Made by a program: the position numbers and the translations under genes. A DNA stretch of 25,830 bases from a virus, in the IMG/VR virus record IMGVR_UViG_3300031578_000301, positions 1 through 25,830 of that record; one strand, written 5' to 3'. The notes under the pieces were generated by a model. It was not told the DNA's origin. It saw only the letters and a list, made by a program, of their open reading frames with translations, and ran no database searches. Positions 12,624 to 25,435 of this stretch are shown here, piece by piece (position 1 is the first letter of the stretch; each line of letters opens with the position of its first letter).

Positions 12624-12646
12624 AAAAAAGGGGAGCATAGCTCCCC
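12624..12646 (-). terminator. Rho-independent terminator after the capsid gene pair
   Basis: GGGGAGC (12630-12636) pairs perfectly with GCTCCCC (12640-12646) across a three-base loop. Read leftward, the stem is followed directly by six T residues (complement of 12624-12629). This is a textbook intrinsic terminator for leftward transcription. It lies between the capsid/41-residue genes and the rest of the virion operon, so it should reduce downstream transcription and favour high capsid output. Read-through or an antiterminator must feed the tail genes. Confidence 0.9.
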
Positions 12647-13690: not shown

Positions 13691-13931
13691 GATGATTCTC
13701 CAGTGCAGTTAATTTAATGTAAAAAATTAATCGACTAGAGCTACCCATAACGGACTCGATGTCTTAAGGTTATCGTTCTCCAACGCTGTTCCATGTGGAA
13801 CATGAGCAATACTAACTCTGCCACATTTGAGAGTTAGATTGTCATGCCTGCCCATAGGGAAGCAGTTAGTTGAAAAATAGAACAAGAAAGGGAGCAATGC
13901 AATAACAAAAAGCAATGCTCACTTTTAAGAA
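13691..13931 (-). promoter_or_regulatory. Hairpin-rich leader before the capsid gene
   Basis: These 241 bases lie between scaffold and capsid and hold no convincing gene; a 62-codon frame here opens only with TTG and has no SD. Three inverted repeats stand out: CTAACTCT/AGAGTTAG (13812-13819 with 13830-13837, perfect 8 bp); TGTTCCA/TGGAACA (13787-13802, a two-base gap); and GAGCAATGC/GCAATGCTC (13892-13900 with 13912-13920, one A-A mismatch). The last overlaps a copy of the recurring GTGAGCATTGCT motif, read leftward. A 5' leader controlling capsid expression, an RNA processing site or a phage promoter would all fit. Confidence 0.55.
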
Positions 13932-16848: not shown

Positions 16849-18190
16849 GGCTTGCACTCGTTTTTATTACTCGTGGCTTGTAACGGGTATCAGTATTTCT
16901 GCATTTAGATATACGTGCTCGCTCCATTGTGTCACCCATTTCAGGATGATGATTAATAGCAAGGTAACGAAAACTATCCGCACCGTTAGAAAATTTGTCA
17001 TGCACTGGAGTATCTTTAAAGATCCCAGTTTTAGGATCATGCTGTTTGCGATAGTTATCTAAGCAATCAATGCCACGAGAGCACTTGATTCGATCCATAT
17101 ATATTTGAGGCATTAACTGCCTAACAGCGTTAATACCATCTGCCACAGGAATACGTGGAGTAACAATCACTTCTTCAAACATGTGGCTATTCTCTAACAT
17201 CTCTGTTCTAGTCTTACCATCATTTAAAGATCTTACTTCTGCATCATGGGGGAGAAAGGCTTTACCATAACGATACTGATCAAAAGGCATTCTGCGCATT
17301 TCATCCATAATGTCTAGCAGTGAGGTGTTAGTCCATTCATGGTATGCTAAACATCTCAACTCATTACCCACAGACTGAGTGAACCAAACACTCGTAGCAT
17401 CATCCATTCCCAGATCCATACTGATATCCACAGGGAGCTGCCTAGCATGGGGTATATTTAATACCCTACCCTCCATCTTCAGGCGCGACATTTCAGCACC
17501 ATAATAACCACCCCTAACTGCTGCACTCCAGTCACATAAAAATTCCTGCCTAAACTCTTCTTCACCCATTGTCTTACGGGCTGCTTCTAATTCTTCAGCA
17601 TCAATAAGCTTAGTATCGAGTGCAGAATAAGTTCTGGCTAACCATCCTTCTGTAGCTTCTGCCTCCTTATACGAATCGTAGAAGTGATTCTTACCATTCG
17701 GAGTGCCTAGAAATATAACCCACCCCTTCCTATCTGCTAATGCAGGCCGTAATACCTCACGCCATATCTGTGGTGACATATTTCCCCATTCATCTAACAC
17801 AACTCCATCAACATAATTTCCACGCAATGTTTCAAAATTTTCTGCACCTGATAACTGGATTCTCGCACCATTAGGAAACTCTGCACGCAGATCTGTTTCG
17901 TAAAAGCGCATATCTGGGATGCCTCGCGTAAATTCCTTCAAATAATCCCATACGATAGATCGAGCCTGCTTCATCGTAGGCGCTACATAAAAAAATCTAG
18001 CGTTTGGTAATGGGCATGTTAGTGCTCCATCAATACATTCATTAATAGCAAAAACTGATTTACCGAAACGCCTATGAATAGCCAAACATGCAAAGCGGAT
18101 TCTGATGCCTTTCTCTCTAAGGCTCGCATGGATCTCAGATTGTAGATCGCGAGGGAAGTAGGGGATATCTATCTCTAGCTTCTTACCCAT
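16835..18190 (-). CDS. terL: Terminase large subunit (packaging ATPase-nuclease)
   Basis: From ATG at 18190 the protein has 451 residues. Walker A-like HRRFGKS is at 39-45, Walker B VVLDE at 130-134, the ATPase coupling motif LGTPNG at 161-166, and a nuclease domain with acidic residues in SMDLGMDD (D259, D263/264), LPHDAE (D317) and FSNGADSFRYL (D405). It cuts concatemers and pumps DNA through the portal. The start is uncertain. ATG 18205 (MSIALMGKK) and GTG 18364 are in frame, but none has a strong SD. The 18190 ATG overlaps the stop of a 76-codon frame, so coupling is possible. Residues upstream of MGKK look non-conserved. Confidence 0.92.
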   Translation of the reverse strand: MGKKLEIDIPYFPRDLQSEIHASLREKGIRIRFACLAIHRRFGKSVFAINECIDGALTCPLPNARFFYVAPTMKQARSIVWDYLKEFTRGIPDMRFYETDLRAEFPNGARIQLSGAENFETLRGNYVDGVVLDEWGNMSPQIWREVLRPALADRKGWVIFLGTPNGKNHFYDSYKEAEATEGWLARTYSALDTKLIDAEELEAARKTMGEEEFRQEFLCDWSAAVRGGYYGAEMSRLKMEGRVLNIPHARQLPVDISMDLGMDDATSVWFTQSVGNELRCLAYHEWTNTSLLDIMDEMRRMPFDQYRYGKAFLPHDAEVRSLNDGKTRTEMLENSHMFEEVIVTPRIPVADGINAVRQLMPQIYMDRIKCSRGIDCLDNYRKQHDPKTGIFKDTPVHDKFSNGADSFRYLAINHHPEMGDTMERARISKCRNTDTRYKPRVIKTSASHARY

Positions 18191-18413
18191 GAGAGCAATG
18201 CTCATCGTTAGGTGATATAATTTGTGTGCGGGTAGTAAGGAGGTAAGCGCGTAAATGCGTTTTTTCGCCCCCCACCCCCCTAAAAAAGGCGTGACTCGAC
18301 CTCTCAAAAAAGCTTTTTTTCTGCGCACGATAGCTGCACGTTCGGAGCAAAGTCCATCTAACACATTCTAAGTCATTGATTTTAAACGATTCACCTATGC
18401 GCATAACATTCAT
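18183..18413 (-). CDS. Doubtful 76-residue frame or leader between the terminase genes
   Basis: An ATG at 18413, with a weak purine-rich AAGGGGA upstream, opens a 76-codon frame that ends exactly over the probable terminase start (ATGGGTAA). The predicted product is Arg-, Ser- and Cys-rich with no recognisable fold, and it crosses odd low-complexity DNA: a C6-A-C6 run at 18268-18280 and AAAAAAGCTTTTTT at 18306-18319. Such a frame could serve mainly to couple translation to the terminase. The stretch 18206-18431 could equally be an untranslated leader or a packaging-recognition site. Confidence 0.3.
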   Translation of the reverse strand: MNVMRIGESFKINDLECVRWTLLRTCSYRAQKKSFFERSSHAFFRGVGGEKTHLRAYLLTTRTQIISPNDEHCSHG

Positions 18414-18878: not shown

Positions 18879-18999
18879 TCATCACCCTATAAAGTGTTCA
18901 ATATTCACTCAAAGGAAAATAGCGTATGACTAGAAATACATCAATAACTTAGTACAACTGTTAGCAATGCTCACCTACACCATTATGGGTGAGTGTTAG
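18879..18999 (-). promoter_or_regulatory. Intergenic control region before the packaging genes
   Basis: Between the resolvase stop and the small-terminase start lie CTCACC (18970-18975) and GGTGAG (18988-18993), a 6-bp inverted repeat with a 12-base loop. On the minus strand the second arm continues as GGTGAGCATTGCTAAC, a copy of the motif repeated elsewhere in this window. Further downstream, leftward TTGATG and TATTTT are separated by 17 bases, a possible sigma70-type promoter for the packaging genes. There is no T-run after the hairpin, so it is more likely an operator than a terminator. Confidence 0.45.
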
Positions 19000-19476
19000 T
19001 CACTTATAGCCTGACAAACCTATCCACAAAGCATCTGCTCGATCAATATCCTTTTTACGTTTTAGATCTTTATGCATGTGTGGCCACCTCTGAATAGCTG
19101 CTGTACGTGCAAAATCTTTTTCAGTACCACTTAGCTTAAACATCTTCTTCCACTTATTAGGTGACACGTATTCAAAGCCTAAATTACTGGCTACAACAAC
19201 ACCTACAATCAAGCCTTTACTCATACCAAAATTGAATGAGCTTGTGACACCTTGCTTAGGCATAGCATGTACATCTTCAATGATCACTTTAGGTTGTGCA
19301 TCACATAGAACGCACCAGTTACCAATAATGTTAAATAGTCCTCGTGCATCAACTATTAATTTCTTATCTCGTGTTGGCATATTAGGGATATCAACAACCT
19401 CAATAGGCTCTCCATCTCTAAACAGTGACATAGCACCCTTTGATCCAGTATCGATACCTATAACATAATTACTCAT
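19000..19476 (-). CDS. RuvC-like Holliday-junction resolvase
   Basis: I start at ATG 19476 (158 residues) because a near-perfect SD, AAGGAGG, lies five bases upstream; a longer frame to 19506 would put that SD inside the gene. The fold is RNase H-like: YVIGIDTGSKGAMSL with first catalytic Asp (D9), KVIIEDV with Glu (E67), and DIDRADALWIGL with the C-terminal Asp pair (D145, D148). MPKQGVTSSFNFGMSKGLIVG is the central segment typical of phage RuvC homologues. The enzyme would resolve branched recombination or replication intermediates before packaging. The ATG overlaps the upstream stop by eight bases. Confidence 0.85.
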   Translation of the reverse strand: MSNYVIGIDTGSKGAMSLFRDGEPIEVVDIPNMPTRDKKLIVDARGLFNIIGNWCVLCDAQPKVIIEDVHAMPKQGVTSSFNFGMSKGLIVGVVVASNLGFEYVSPNKWKKMFKLSGTEKDFARTAAIQRWPHMHKDLKRKKDIDRADALWIGLSGYK

Positions 19477-19705
19477 ACTCACCTCCTTCATCTCTAATTC
19501 CATCAATTCTATCTTCTGCTAAGGCTTCTAAAGTCTCACTATCATTGAGCTTCATTGGCTTACCTCGACTACTCATATTATTAAGTGCTATACCATCATC
19601 TATGCACTCTGCACATGTACTAGGAAAGCCCATCGCTTCATTCAGTGGCCAGTAGCATATATCGCATATCACACCATTAATTATTAAATCTGCTATATCA
19701 CTCAT
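19469..19705 (-). CDS. Small zinc-ribbon-like protein
   Basis: A 78-residue protein with two Cys pairs, C14xxC17 (ICDIC) and C31xxC34 (CAEC), that should hold one zinc ion, followed by an acidic C-terminal half. The opening SDIADLIINGVICDICYWPL and GFPSTCAEC pattern is familiar from many small phage proteins of unknown role found among replication genes. SD GAGGTG lies before the ATG. The gene sits eight bases after the previous stop and overlaps the resolvase start. Confidence 0.75.
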   Translation of the reverse strand: MSDIADLIINGVICDICYWPLNEAMGFPSTCAECIDDGIALNNMSSRGKPMKLNDSETLEALAEDRIDGIRDEGGEYE

Positions 19706-19713
19706 ATATCACC

Positions 19714-20010
19714 TCAATTTAATAGTATTATCTGGTTAGCTGATTTCACCTCGATATCATCTCCTTCCAGAAATGTATAAAGCTCGATCAAGCCATTCTT
19801 CACTACATCGATCTCACCACCTATGCGCAGTAGCTCATCAAAGCTAACAGGTGCATCGTGATACTCCTGTTCAGGTAAGCTGCCATCATCGCTGATCTCG
19901 TGAATCATTCTCACTGCTTCATCTTCAACACCTGCACCTGCTCTGCTTGCATGTACATATAATATTTTTAGCTGTTTTTGTAGTAGCTCTTGTGGGCTTA
20001 GTTTTGCCAT
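19714..20010 (-). CDS. Small unknown acidic protein
   Basis: A 98-residue protein, helical and acidic, beginning LSPQELLQKQLKILYVHASR and later SFDELLRIGGEIDVVKNGLI. AGGA lies nine bases before the ATG. It is the first gene of the second leftward block, right after the 10-bp repeat array and the terminator. I recognise no family. Its company (zinc-ribbon and resolvase) suggests a DNA-metabolism accessory. Confidence 0.6.
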   Translation of the reverse strand: MAKLSPQELLQKQLKILYVHASRAGAGVEDEAVRMIHEISDDGSLPEQEYHDAPVSFDELLRIGGEIDVVKNGLIELYTFLEGDDIEVKSANQIILLN

Positions 20011-20045
20011 AATCGTTATCCTGTCAAAAGTAGTTAGTTAATGTA

Positions 20046-20085
20046 AAATTCAGTAAAATATAGTCAAATATAGTCAAACATCAGT
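20046..20085. repeat. Four tandem 10-bp repeats upstream of the second leftward block
   Basis: Four consecutive 10-base units read AAATTCAGTA, AAATATAGTC, AAATATAGTC and AAACATCAGT; the middle two are identical and the outer two match in part. One unit per helical turn would put a bound protein on one face of the DNA. Leftward, the units contain TTGACT hexamers that could act as -35 boxes, although I found no good -10 partner. The array lies 36 bases upstream of the 98-residue gene, so it probably controls that block. Confidence 0.6.
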
Positions 20086-20101
20086 GAATAGGTGGACATG
20101 T

Positions 20102-20143
20102 AAAAAACTTGAGGTTAAGCTGCCAAGCAGCTTACCTCTTTTT
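20102..20143. terminator. Bidirectional intrinsic terminator after the PrimPol-helicase gene
   Basis: GAGGTTAAGCTG (20111-20122) pairs with CAGCTTACCTC (20128-20138) with one bulged base and a five-base loop. Rightward it is followed by TTTTT (20139-20143). Leftward, after three bases, comes a run of six T (complement of 20102-20107). It should stop leftward transcription coming from the control region at 22.4 kb, separating the early regulator/primase unit from the next block. Confidence 0.85.
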
Positions 20144-20174
20144 GACATTCCTCCACTCGACCTAACGCTCATAT

Positions 20175-22082
20175 CTATTCGCCCATGTATCTTATGTGAG
20201 GGGAATTAGCTATAGATATAATCAATCCCCTCTCTTCAAGCTTTGTCATTACCTGCGGAAAGCTTTGTCTGCTAATCCCGTGATCCTTCGCCCACTCTCT
20301 AAGCTCTAAGCGCTCTAACGTAGCAGGGATATCACTACTGGCTTCATTCAATCGTATTTTGATCTCCATGTGACGAGTGCGTATATAATTAATCAGCTTC
20401 AATTGATTGCCCCCTAATCCTTTTGATTCAACAGATAATGTACGCCTCTCTACAGTAGGAGCAGTCGCACAATTGCGTAGCGTTAGCGTGCTCACTGGAT
20501 CACCATCTTCATCATTCCATGATGGTGGTAGCTCGATAACTTCAGGCATAAAACTTAATTCAGGTGGCTGCTTAAAATCCTTTGGATCTTTATAAACACT
20601 GAGAGTTACCATGTCGCTCTCTGCATCTGGTCGCTTTAACAGGTAAGCAACATCTGCTGCACCTGCTTGTTGTGATGAGCCACGCATCCTTTCCTTATTA
20701 TCATGCCCTACGTGATCTACAACTGCTGCCATGCAATTCATTGTGATCTGCAACTTACGCAAAGCGTTAATCCAATTATTCATTGTGGCTGCATCGCTAT
20801 CGCTTCCTGCCATGTTTGCAGACTTTGTATCTACTATGATGAAATCAATCTCATAATCTAGCGCTAAGATATCAACCATTAACTGATCCATCTCACGCCT
20901 CTCATTTATCATCACAGCATTGATTGATACCTGTAATAAATTCTCTCCAAGCTCCACACCATATCTTAGCTCTAATCCTTTCAACCGCTTAGCTAAACCT
21001 CCTGCACCCTCACCATTGATAACGAGCACCTTTCCCTGCCTAACCTTATTGCCACACCAATCTCTCCCTATAGCCACATGATATGCCATATCTAGCATTA
21101 GGAATGTTTTGTAACTACTCCACTCACCTGCAAGCCATGCAATACCTTCTGTGGGTAGATAGTTTTTTATCAGCCATGTTAGCTTTACTGGATTATGCGT
21201 TAGATCATAAGCATCTACCCAGAATTTAGAGTTAGGCGTTAGAGTTTGTTGAACTACCTCATCATCCACGTTAGATGCTTTCTCTAGTGTGGCCTCAATA
21301 TAATCCTTCCTTAATCCTTTATCAGGATTCTCATTCCATTTACACCTGTGCTCATAGATCAGCATTTGCGTTTGATAAACACTGAAGCCCCTAATGTATG
21401 CGCGTGTGGCTATAGCTAGATCATATTCATTCTGGCTTGGCAGATCCTTAAGCTTATTCCACAGCTCATAAGACTGGCTTTCTTCACAGAATTGTATAAT
21501 TAGCTCATGGGCTTCACTTGTGGTTGGTGGCAGCGCTATAGGTTTAGGTGGCTCAATATCGCTAAGTGGCTTCTCAGCTATCTTCTGACTGATCATATCA
21601 ATAGCTGCTTGATTCTCCCTAACCACATCAATACTATTAAACTCCTTACCTGTAATAGTAAAAAATCTACCTTTATTATAAATCTCGCCCACTGTACGCT
21701 TAAGGCATACATCAAGATTTCCTTTAATATAAATATGGAAGCCCTTTCCACTTGGAGAGAACTCAGTATAACTGTTAGCCTCTTCAATCCAATGCAATGC
21801 GTATGGCTCAATCACTCCATCATCATCAATGCACTTATCGATATCCACACCAACAATTCCTACTTCTTCAGTGAATACAAATCCTATTCCATCAAATTGA
21901 TCCGCTTCTGCCACAGCTTCATCATAGCTGCACCATGTATCTGAATTTGTGCTACTGGCTTTCTTTTCTGGTTGCTTAATCTGATATGGAACTTTAGTAG
22001 TATTGAAGCCTCGCTTCTCAAAACGCCATCCTACCCAGTTTGAATGATCGCGCAATTCATCGGGTATATTGTCATAATCCAT
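20175..22082 (-). CDS. PrimPol-type primase fused to a RepA-like helicase
   Basis: A 635-residue fusion. Residues 1-150 carry the archaeo-eukaryotic primase (PrimPol) pattern: WVGWRFEKR, DGIGFVF, catalytic GVDIDKC (D80, D82), SYTEFSPSGKGFHIYIKG (H116) and GRFFTITG. Residues about 300-500 are a RecA-fold hexameric helicase: WLAGEWSSYKTFL (Walker A 319-326, lacking the usual Gly before Lys), KVLVINGEG, FIIVDTKSANMAGSD (Walker B 414-418), VVDHVGHDNKERMRGSSQQAGAAD. The last 60 or so residues look like a winged helix. It would prime and unwind the phage origin. SD GGAG; one base after the regulator's stop codon. No separate DNA polymerase is in the window. Confidence 0.9.
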   Translation of the reverse strand: MDYDNIPDELRDHSNWVGWRFEKRGFNTTKVPYQIKQPEKKASSTNSDTWCSYDEAVAEADQFDGIGFVFTEEVGIVGVDIDKCIDDDGVIEPYALHWIEEANSYTEFSPSGKGFHIYIKGNLDVCLKRTVGEIYNKGRFFTITGKEFNSIDVVRENQAAIDMISQKIAEKPLSDIEPPKPIALPPTTSEAHELIIQFCEESQSYELWNKLKDLPSQNEYDLAIATRAYIRGFSVYQTQMLIYEHRCKWNENPDKGLRKDYIEATLEKASNVDDEVVQQTLTPNSKFWVDAYDLTHNPVKLTWLIKNYLPTEGIAWLAGEWSSYKTFLMLDMAYHVAIGRDWCGNKVRQGKVLVINGEGAGGLAKRLKGLELRYGVELGENLLQVSINAVMINERREMDQLMVDILALDYEIDFIIVDTKSANMAGSDSDAATMNNWINALRKLQITMNCMAAVVDHVGHDNKERMRGSSQQAGAADVAYLLKRPDAESDMVTLSVYKDPKDFKQPPELSFMPEVIELPPSWNDEDGDPVSTLTLRNCATAPTVERRTLSVESKGLGGNQLKLINYIRTRHMEIKIRLNEASSDIPATLERLELREWAKDHGISRQSFPQVMTKLEERGLIISIANSPHIRYMGE

Positions 22083-22083
22083 G

Positions 22084-22395
22084 CTACTCTCCAGAGTCTA
22101 TAATATTCTCGGATGTAGCATCTAACGCTTGAGGTAAGTATATCTCTGGGAAAATATCTTCTAAATATAAAGGGATATCTGCATCTTCTGCATACTTAGC
22201 AAGCCTTAATCCGCTAATAGGCGGGATGCAATTCTTCCAGTGGCTGACAGCACTAGGATTAATATTAAGTATCTTAGCTACTTCCATGCGCCCACCTAGC
22301 TTATCGATCACATAATTCACATGATCATTTCTTCTAATTTGATTACAGTTTGGGATTGGATGAACTGGTTTTTTAGGTGCTTTAATTTCACTCAT
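22084..22395 (-). CDS. Cro/YdaS-like DNA-binding regulator
   Basis: A 103-residue protein with a helix-turn-helix at about residues 33-58 (LGGRMEVAKILNINPSAVSH, WKNCIPP), the pattern of Cro- and YdaS-type proteins: Gly-Gly start, A..L.I...AVS.W, then IP. The flanks are short and polar. Its ATG has SD AGGAG and faces the divergent control region, so it probably binds there and regulates itself and the rightward genes. Being in one unit with the primase-helicase, it could also be an origin-binding protein. No integrase or second repressor is visible, so it does not by itself show lysogeny. Confidence 0.75.
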   Translation of the reverse strand: MSEIKAPKKPVHPIPNCNQIRRNDHVNYVIDKLGGRMEVAKILNINPSAVSHWKNCIPPISGLRLAKYAEDADIPLYLEDIFPEIYLPQALDATSENIIDSGE

Positions 22396-22507
22396 TGTGA
22401 TCTCCTATGTTGAATCTGTTTTTGCTTTTGGAGGGTGAGCATTGCCTAGCTTAATAATAATCACAAGAAAAAAACCATTAAATTAGCATCGCTCACCCAT
22501 AGTTTAA

Positions 22508-22538
22508 CTGGTAGTTGAACTCTTAGTTGAACTACCAG
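22508..22538. repeat. Hairpin 1 of a covarying pair, with 12-bp iterons
   Basis: CTGGTAGTT pairs with AACTACCAG (9 bp); after a G-G mismatch a further 4 bp close a three-base loop. Three adjoining 12-base units (TAGTTTAACTGG, TAGTTGAACTCT, TAGTTGAACTAC; 22500-22535) run through it. Confidence 0.85.
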
Positions 22539-22575
22539 ATCAAGAGTACGTCTAGCTCTGCGACTCACTCATCAA

Positions 22576-22606
22576 CTGTTAGTTGAACTCTTAGTTGAAC
22601 TAACAG
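22576..22606. repeat. Hairpin 2 of a covarying pair, with 12-bp iterons
   Basis: CTGTTAGTT pairs with AACTAACAG with the same mismatch and loop as hairpin 1, 68 bases further on. It differs from hairpin 1 only at positions 4 and 28, which pair with each other (G-C becomes T-A). Iteron units TAGTTGAACTCT and TAGTTGAACTAA span 22580-22603. Confidence 0.85.
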
Positions 22607-22625
22607 TGAGCATCACTTCTTCCCC

Positions 22626-22654
22626 TTGCGATTGTCATTTTCTGTAACTAATCT
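22626..22654 (+). promoter_or_regulatory. Probable sigma70-type promoter for the rightward genes
   Basis: TTGCGA (22626-22631) and TAATCT (22649-22654) are separated by 17 bases, giving a likely start near 22661 and a short leader rich in CAA that should be unstructured. SD AAAGGAG precedes the ATG at 22694. Neither hexamer is perfect, so an activator or the nearby repeats may matter. Confidence 0.5.
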
Positions 22655-22693
22655 TCTCTTCCACAAAACAACAACAAAACAAAGGAGAAAATT

Positions 22694-25311: not shown

Positions 25312-25435
25312 TTGCACCAAAGAAAATAAATACCCTCTTCTCACTGTCGCAGATGTTAGGTATAGAACACCTGCCATCTGCATGACATGGGAAGATTACG
25401 GAAAATACATAGGAGCATTAAAATGCTTAAGGTAG
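25304..25435 (+). CDS. Possible 43-residue protein
   Basis: A GTG at 25304, eight bases inside the end of the preceding gene, opens a frame that ends TAG at 25435, 13 bases inside the next gene. AAGAGG lies 12 bases upstream, a weak spacing. The product (VANCTKENKYPLLTVADVRY at the start, TWEDYGKYIGALKCLR at the end) looks protein-like, and the frame fills an otherwise empty 111 bases in a tightly packed operon. Confidence 0.4.
   Translation: MANCTKENKYPLLTVADVRYRTPAICMTWEDYGKYIGALKCLR

Follow-up and report, generated by a model that had tools for sequence, protein, structure and literature searches.

Gene content of the fragment and copies of the motif

The window analyzed here is the whole 25,830-bp fragment of an uncultured podovirus (IMG/VR record IMGVR_UViG_3300031578_000301), of which 1,420 bp (5.5%) is non-coding. 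Genes on its minus strand encode tail, internal virion, capsid, scaffold-like, portal, terminase, RuvC-like, primase-helicase, and Cro-like proteins, and genes on its plus strand encode a Sak4-like AAA protein, an SSB-like protein, and a Cas4-type exonuclease. The portal is 41 to 44% identical to the portals of Vibrio phages K300 and VP5. Among the long records found, the closest is G002 (38 kb), which matches the window in gene order around cro, with 67% identity in the capsid protein and 62% in TerL. Searches of viral contigs for close relatives of the primase, portal, and Cro proteins returned either a near-identical contig or no match, and searches of prokaryote genomes with Cro and TerL, as well as tRNA and Rfam searches, returned no matches. 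The left end was extended with contig G001 by ~2.3 kb, apparently coding sequence for an internal virion protein; extension of the right end through its last bases gave nothing.

A short motif had been predicted to recur at control points across this fragment, mostly in non-coding DNA, and to be a phage-wide operator or promoter element. All of the positions listed in that original prediction are verified in the sequence: 22433 to 22445 (plus strand, GGGTGAGCATTGC), 22486 to 22498 (minus strand, GGGTGAGCGATGC, two mismatches), 22606 to 22617 (plus strand, GTGAGCATCACT), 18964 to 18975 (minus strand), 18194 to 18205 (minus strand, ATGAGCATTGCT), and 13911 to 13922 (minus strand, exact). A half copy, GGGTGAG, is present at 18987, and the partial copy at the right edge of the window (ATGGTGAGATGCT) is truncated and has motif bases missing.

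With up to three mismatches allowed, the motif occurs 31 times in the whole window versus 31.3 expected, which is the level of chance. An enrichment that exceeds that of shuffled sequence, and that bears out the mostly non-coding placement, is seen once non-coding DNA is counted separately. Copies with at most one mismatch number 4 in non-coding DNA and 0 in coding DNA (Fisher 9e-6), and GTGAGCATTGCT with at most two mismatches is found at 8 non-coding versus 3 coding places (8/11; Fisher 1e-8), so that coding density is not equal to non-coding density within this fragment; these Fisher values are a less fair measure than the shuffle test because the word was chosen from the same data. The 10-mer TGAGCATTGC has four exact copies in non-coding DNA, as does a second word, TAGTTGAACT, while only 1 in 2,000 dinucleotide shuffles of the non-coding DNA gives four copies of any 10-mer. 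The best 12-mer with at most two mismatches has 8 places, versus no more than 5 in 40 shuffles of non-coding DNA. In a held-out test, words that recur in the divergent region were looked for elsewhere, and GTGAGCAT was found twice in 1.1 kb of non-coding DNA and not at all in 24.4 kb of coding DNA, a result (p 0.002 before correction for 54 correlated words) that is only supportive and is weak once corrected. Repeated phage words such as this one need to be tested separately in non-coding DNA, since the whole-window count conceals the signal.

The M1 dyad and other inverted repeats of the control regions

The motif word (GTKAGCANTGCTMAC; M1, as distinct from the M2 word TTAGTTGAACT described below) is one side of an imperfect 15-bp dyad, GTKAGCA-N-TGCTMAC, whose core, AGCAWTGCT, is a palindrome. 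When the dyad is scored over the window, position 18960 scores 15/15 and positions 13802, 18191, and 22482 score 13/15, and these top four places are all non-coding. A score of 12/15 adds 13908, 22435, a terminator stem at 12631, and three coding places. Put as a symmetric model, scores of ≥13 are found at 4 non-coding and 0 coding places and scores of ≥12 at 7 versus 3 (one of the 7 being the terminator stem), and the 7 non-coding matches compare with an average of 0.17 when non-coding DNA is shuffled; as the model derives from the same sites, these numbers describe the pattern, its independent part being the site at 13802 and the palindromic core. The match at 12631 to 12645, a terminator stem with a T-run behind it, was left out of the M1 sites.

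There are seven to nine M1 sites, in four regions and in both orientations. In the divergent region between cro and the recombination genes, S1 (22435 to 22449, plus strand, GTGAGCATTGCCTAG) and S2 (22482 to 22496, minus strand, ATTAGCATCGCTCAC in plus-strand letters) are inverted partners with centers 47 bp apart, and the M1-like S3 (22606 to 22617, plus strand, GTGAGCATCACT) has a weak dyad fit and an alternative palindrome, AGTGAGCATCACT. Before terS, S4 (18960 to 18974, minus strand, GTTAGCAATGCTCAC in plus-strand letters) is the best match in the window, and its inverted partner 29 bp away is the half copy S9 (18989 to 19003, plus strand, GTGAGTGTTAGTCAC), the last bases of which overlap the 3' end of the RuvC-like gene. 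S5 (18191 to 18205, minus strand, GAGAGCAATGCTCAT in plus-strand letters) is at the terL start. In the capsid leader, S6 (13908 to 13922, minus strand, AAAAGCAATGCTCAC in plus-strand letters) and the M1-like S7 (13890 to 13904, plus strand, GGGAGCAATGCAATA) form an inverted pair 18 bp apart, and S8 (13802 to 13816, plus strand, ATGAGCAATACTAAC), which had been missed in the original prediction, lies further downstream. In S3, S6, and S7, only one of the two half-sites fits the dyad well.

The terL copy may be coding: ATGAGCATTGCT reads ATG AGC ATT GCT (MSIA), which would be codons 1 to 4 in the terL frame if translation starts at 18205 and not at 18190. The alignment with the G002 TerL homologue begins at the second ATG (18190), and a start there would place the motif in the leader. 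Two contigs that share >99.9% identity with the window, L004 and L005, have the same M1 and M2 elements wherever they overlap it; they are so nearly identical that they are not independent evidence. One single-nucleotide difference between L004 and the window lies just outside S1. The right end of another near-identical contig, L044 (G001), falls at window position 13913, within S6, which is probably a coincidence of assembly.

M1 is absent from two further control regions, 20011 to 20174 (before a 98-aa gene) and 25312 to 25423. The minus strand of 20011 to 20174 carries a terminator-like stem followed by repeats of TTTGACTATA, and it has the strongest sigma-70-like promoter among the scanned control regions.

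The M2 elements are two near-identical 31-bp inverted repeats built on TTAGTTGAACT, which share the divergent region with M1 and lie before the recombination operon. Their form is CTG(G/T)TAGTTGAACTCTTAGTTGAACTA(C/A)CAG, and copy 1 (22508 to 22538, plus strand, CTGGTAGTTGAACTCTTAGTTGAACTACCAG) and copy 2 (22576 to 22606, plus strand, CTGTTAGTTGAACTCTTAGTTGAACTAACAG) differ by one paired change and fold as strong hairpins (z -4.0 and -4.5). Partial M2 copies are found beside M1 in the terS leader (AACTGTTAG, near 18956 to 18964) and in the capsid leader (GTTAGTTGAA, near 13865), and the pattern TTAG-N5-CTAA is common to M1 and M2. The M2 elements are operator candidates equally as good as M1.

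A parS-like palindrome, TGTTCCATGTGGAACA (13787 to 13802), directly abuts S8 in the capsid leader. It is one mismatch from P. aeruginosa parS2/parS3 (TGTTCCACGTGGAACA; PMC5098823), and the expected count of its 14-bp core over the window is 0.0003. The related podovirus genomes G012 (IMGVR_UViG_3300038682_000138; L045+L046) and G008 (IMGVR_UViG_3300038309_000033; L047+L048) contain 23 and 25 copies, respectively, of GTTCCAYRTGGAAC, versus 0.0006 expected in each 39-kb genome. These copies are mostly flanked by GGGG...CCCC, as GGGGTTCCACGTGGAACCCC; about half are between genes, several are at convergent gene ends, and one G008 copy is in the capsid leader (33901). No ParB_N domain was found above the cut-off in either genome. 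Contigs L149 and L153 have 5 copies of GTTCCAYRTGGAAC each, and in VP5 (L136, NC_005891), TGTCGACGTCGACA is present eight times, usually in the form GGGTGTCGACGTCGACACCC, both within genes and between them, with outer arms that resemble those of the G012 and G008 element. The parS-like palindromes may be terminators, may bind a host ParB, or may have another role. Like M1, the iterated palindromes of G012, G008, and VP5, which are portal or capsid relatives, are dyad words that recur along a phage genome, but unlike M1 they are longer and perfect or nearly so, are present in 8 to 25 copies of which about half are within genes, and have other letters.

The Cro-like protein and its predicted promoter region

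The candidate ligand of the M1 sites is the 103-aa Cro-like DNA-binding protein encoded on the minus strand at 22084 to 22395. It belongs to the P22_Cro family (Pfam PF14549, 30.9 bits versus a cut-off of 30.2), its PHROG category is DNA-binding, and its only PDB match is 1rzs (P22 Cro); its AlphaFold model (pLDDT 50) is too poor for use. No other repressor gene was recognized in the window. The best-scoring minus-strand promoter of the divergent region, predicted with an approximate sigma-70 matrix, is TTTAAT-17-TATTAT at 22454 to 22482, between S2 and S1, with a predicted start near 22447. S1 covers this start and S2 overlaps the -35 hexamer, an arrangement that, if the promoter is placed correctly, fits autorepression.

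In the terS leader, the center of S4 is ~58 bp upstream of a weak predicted start at 18909, and in the capsid leader, the center of S6 is ~48 bp upstream of a weak predicted start at 13867. Given these weak promoter predictions, the two placements fit activation or repression equally. A promoter score of ≥7 arises about once per 530 bases per strand, and a scan for the sigma-70 consensus finds fewer sites than in shuffles, so the promoter calls are only hints.

Comparison with other phages favors the Cro-like protein as the possible ligand. The Cro protein of Acinetobacter phage vB_AbaSI_1 is 41% identical to the Cro-like protein and has a similar recognition helix (PSSVSGWK versus PSAVSHWK). 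The cI-cro intergenic region of that phage contains GTTAGGAAATCCTAAC, which has a related GTTAG half-site with a spacing one base longer than that of M1, and these operators may belong to its CI. The G002 Cro is 31% identical and has a different helix, RTNVSKWK, and in place of M1 the G002 divergent region has TGCACA 6 times in 304 bp versus 0.4 expected (P 4e-6). Repeats of other letters beside a diverged Cro helix are expected if operators and regulators co-evolve. TGCACA is not repeated in the terS and capsid leaders of G002, so the reach into late genes is not conserved. In 12 related records, we found only two one-mismatch matches to an 11-mer of M1, neither of them traced to a control region. 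The literature on BcepC6B and epsilon15 operators yielded nothing relevant. The proposal of a phage-wide element thus holds for four control regions of the fragment and does not extend to the two that lack M1 or to the late leaders of G002.

Candidate operators and competing readings

Based on the dyad shape of the sites, their concentration in non-coding DNA, their mostly paired arrangement, and their position on both sides of the best predicted cro promoter, the operator half of the original prediction is supported. The best explanation, to which we give about even credence, is that M1 sites are 15-bp operators of one dimeric helix-turn-helix regulator, most likely the P22-Cro-like protein at 22084 to 22395, which on sequence grounds is a plausible ligand. 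With dimers bound at S1 and S2, the start and the -35 region of the leftward cro promoter would be occupied, and cro would be repressed along with the replication genes behind it. The Cro-like protein, or one sharing its sites, would also bind S4/S9 before terS, S5 at terL, and the capsid-leader sites S6/S7/S8, and binding at these late leaders would determine when the packaging and head genes are expressed.

Among the closest known systems are the immunity operators of lambdoid phages with a P22-type Cro (P22, N15, phiKO2, PY54). The P22 half-site is of the TTAG kind and resembles the M1 half-site. As in these phages, a P22_Cro-family gene is adjacent to several 15- to 17-bp dyads in the intergenic region beside cro: S1, S2, and M2 sit in 22396 to 22693 between the leftward cro-primase genes and the rightward Sak4/SSB/Cas4 genes, which are divergent early units. 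Unlike in the lambdoid phages, no cI adjoins cro, and further sites lie in the terS and capsid leaders and at terL. Facing cro is an AAA_24/Sak4-like recombination gene rather than a CI-type repressor gene; a CI gene may lie outside the fragment. The Cro of phiKO2 binds only OR3 (PMC4997575). Mycobacteriophage cluster A (L5-type) stoperators are similar to M1 in being short words at many genome places that are tied to a phage repressor. However, stoperators are 13-bp sites in one orientation to transcription. They are asymmetric and are recognized by a monomeric repressor that stops elongation (PMC9283540), whereas M1 is dyadic and lies in four control regions of the fragment in both orientations.

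A competing reading, which we consider somewhat unlikely, keeps M1 as operators but assigns them to another phage regulator, a CI-type repressor or late activator encoded outside the fragment, with the Cro-like protein binding M2. The missing part of the genome may encode such a regulator, and G002 encodes a tyrosine-recombinase-like protein (19366 to 20775, read from its sequence), which suggests that the lineage may be temperate; in addition, M2 is strongly repeated and is the element closest to the rightward recombination operon. In contrast, cro is the sole repressor gene recognized in the window, and the two dyads with the clearest relation to a promoter bracket that of cro itself. It is improbable that M1 acts in RNA, as arms of leader hairpins that affect transcript stability, termination, or translation. 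S6 and S7 do fold together into a single hairpin of the capsid leader (z -4.0), S1 and S2 make up inverted arms of 8 bp, and the paired change between the M2 hairpins is in keeping with such a role. However, neither the pair in the terS leader nor the region around 13802 gives a better fold than shuffled sequence, an RNA hairpin could not close on the single-base loop left by the core dyad, and M1 is without a following T-run or an Rfam family match.

That M1 is a promoter of a phage RNA polymerase or sigma factor is highly improbable, even though the copies before terS, terL, and the capsid gene are oriented toward their genes. The promoter half of the original prediction fails on conservation, which ends at ~15 bp, on the dyadic core, and on orientation, which goes both ways in the divergent region; moreover, the tested large open reading frames of G002, a complete relative of this incomplete window, match internal virion and lysis families and include no recognizable RNA polymerase. 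Very little probability also attaches to chance repetition of a word in AT-rich leaders. The whole-window count at expectation, the choice of the word after looking, and the corrected held-out test favor chance, but both the rarity of four exact copies of any 10-mer in shuffles and the excess over shuffles under the symmetric model, although that model shares its sites, argue against it.

The arrangement around cro is familiar, yet the reach of the preferred operator system into late capsid and packaging genes would be wider than that of lambda-type switches. In its boldest form, which we regard as unlikely, a podovirus would use a P22-type Cro that has no CI beside it as a global switch, shutting the early operon and binding paired dyads in the terS, terL, and capsid leaders so that late genes are timed directly and not via an antiterminator. 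The M1 sites provide a testable operator set for poorly studied environmental podoviruses, and if it is true that one Cro-like protein reaches the late leaders, this would offer the phage a simple means of tying early shut-off to packaging and head synthesis.
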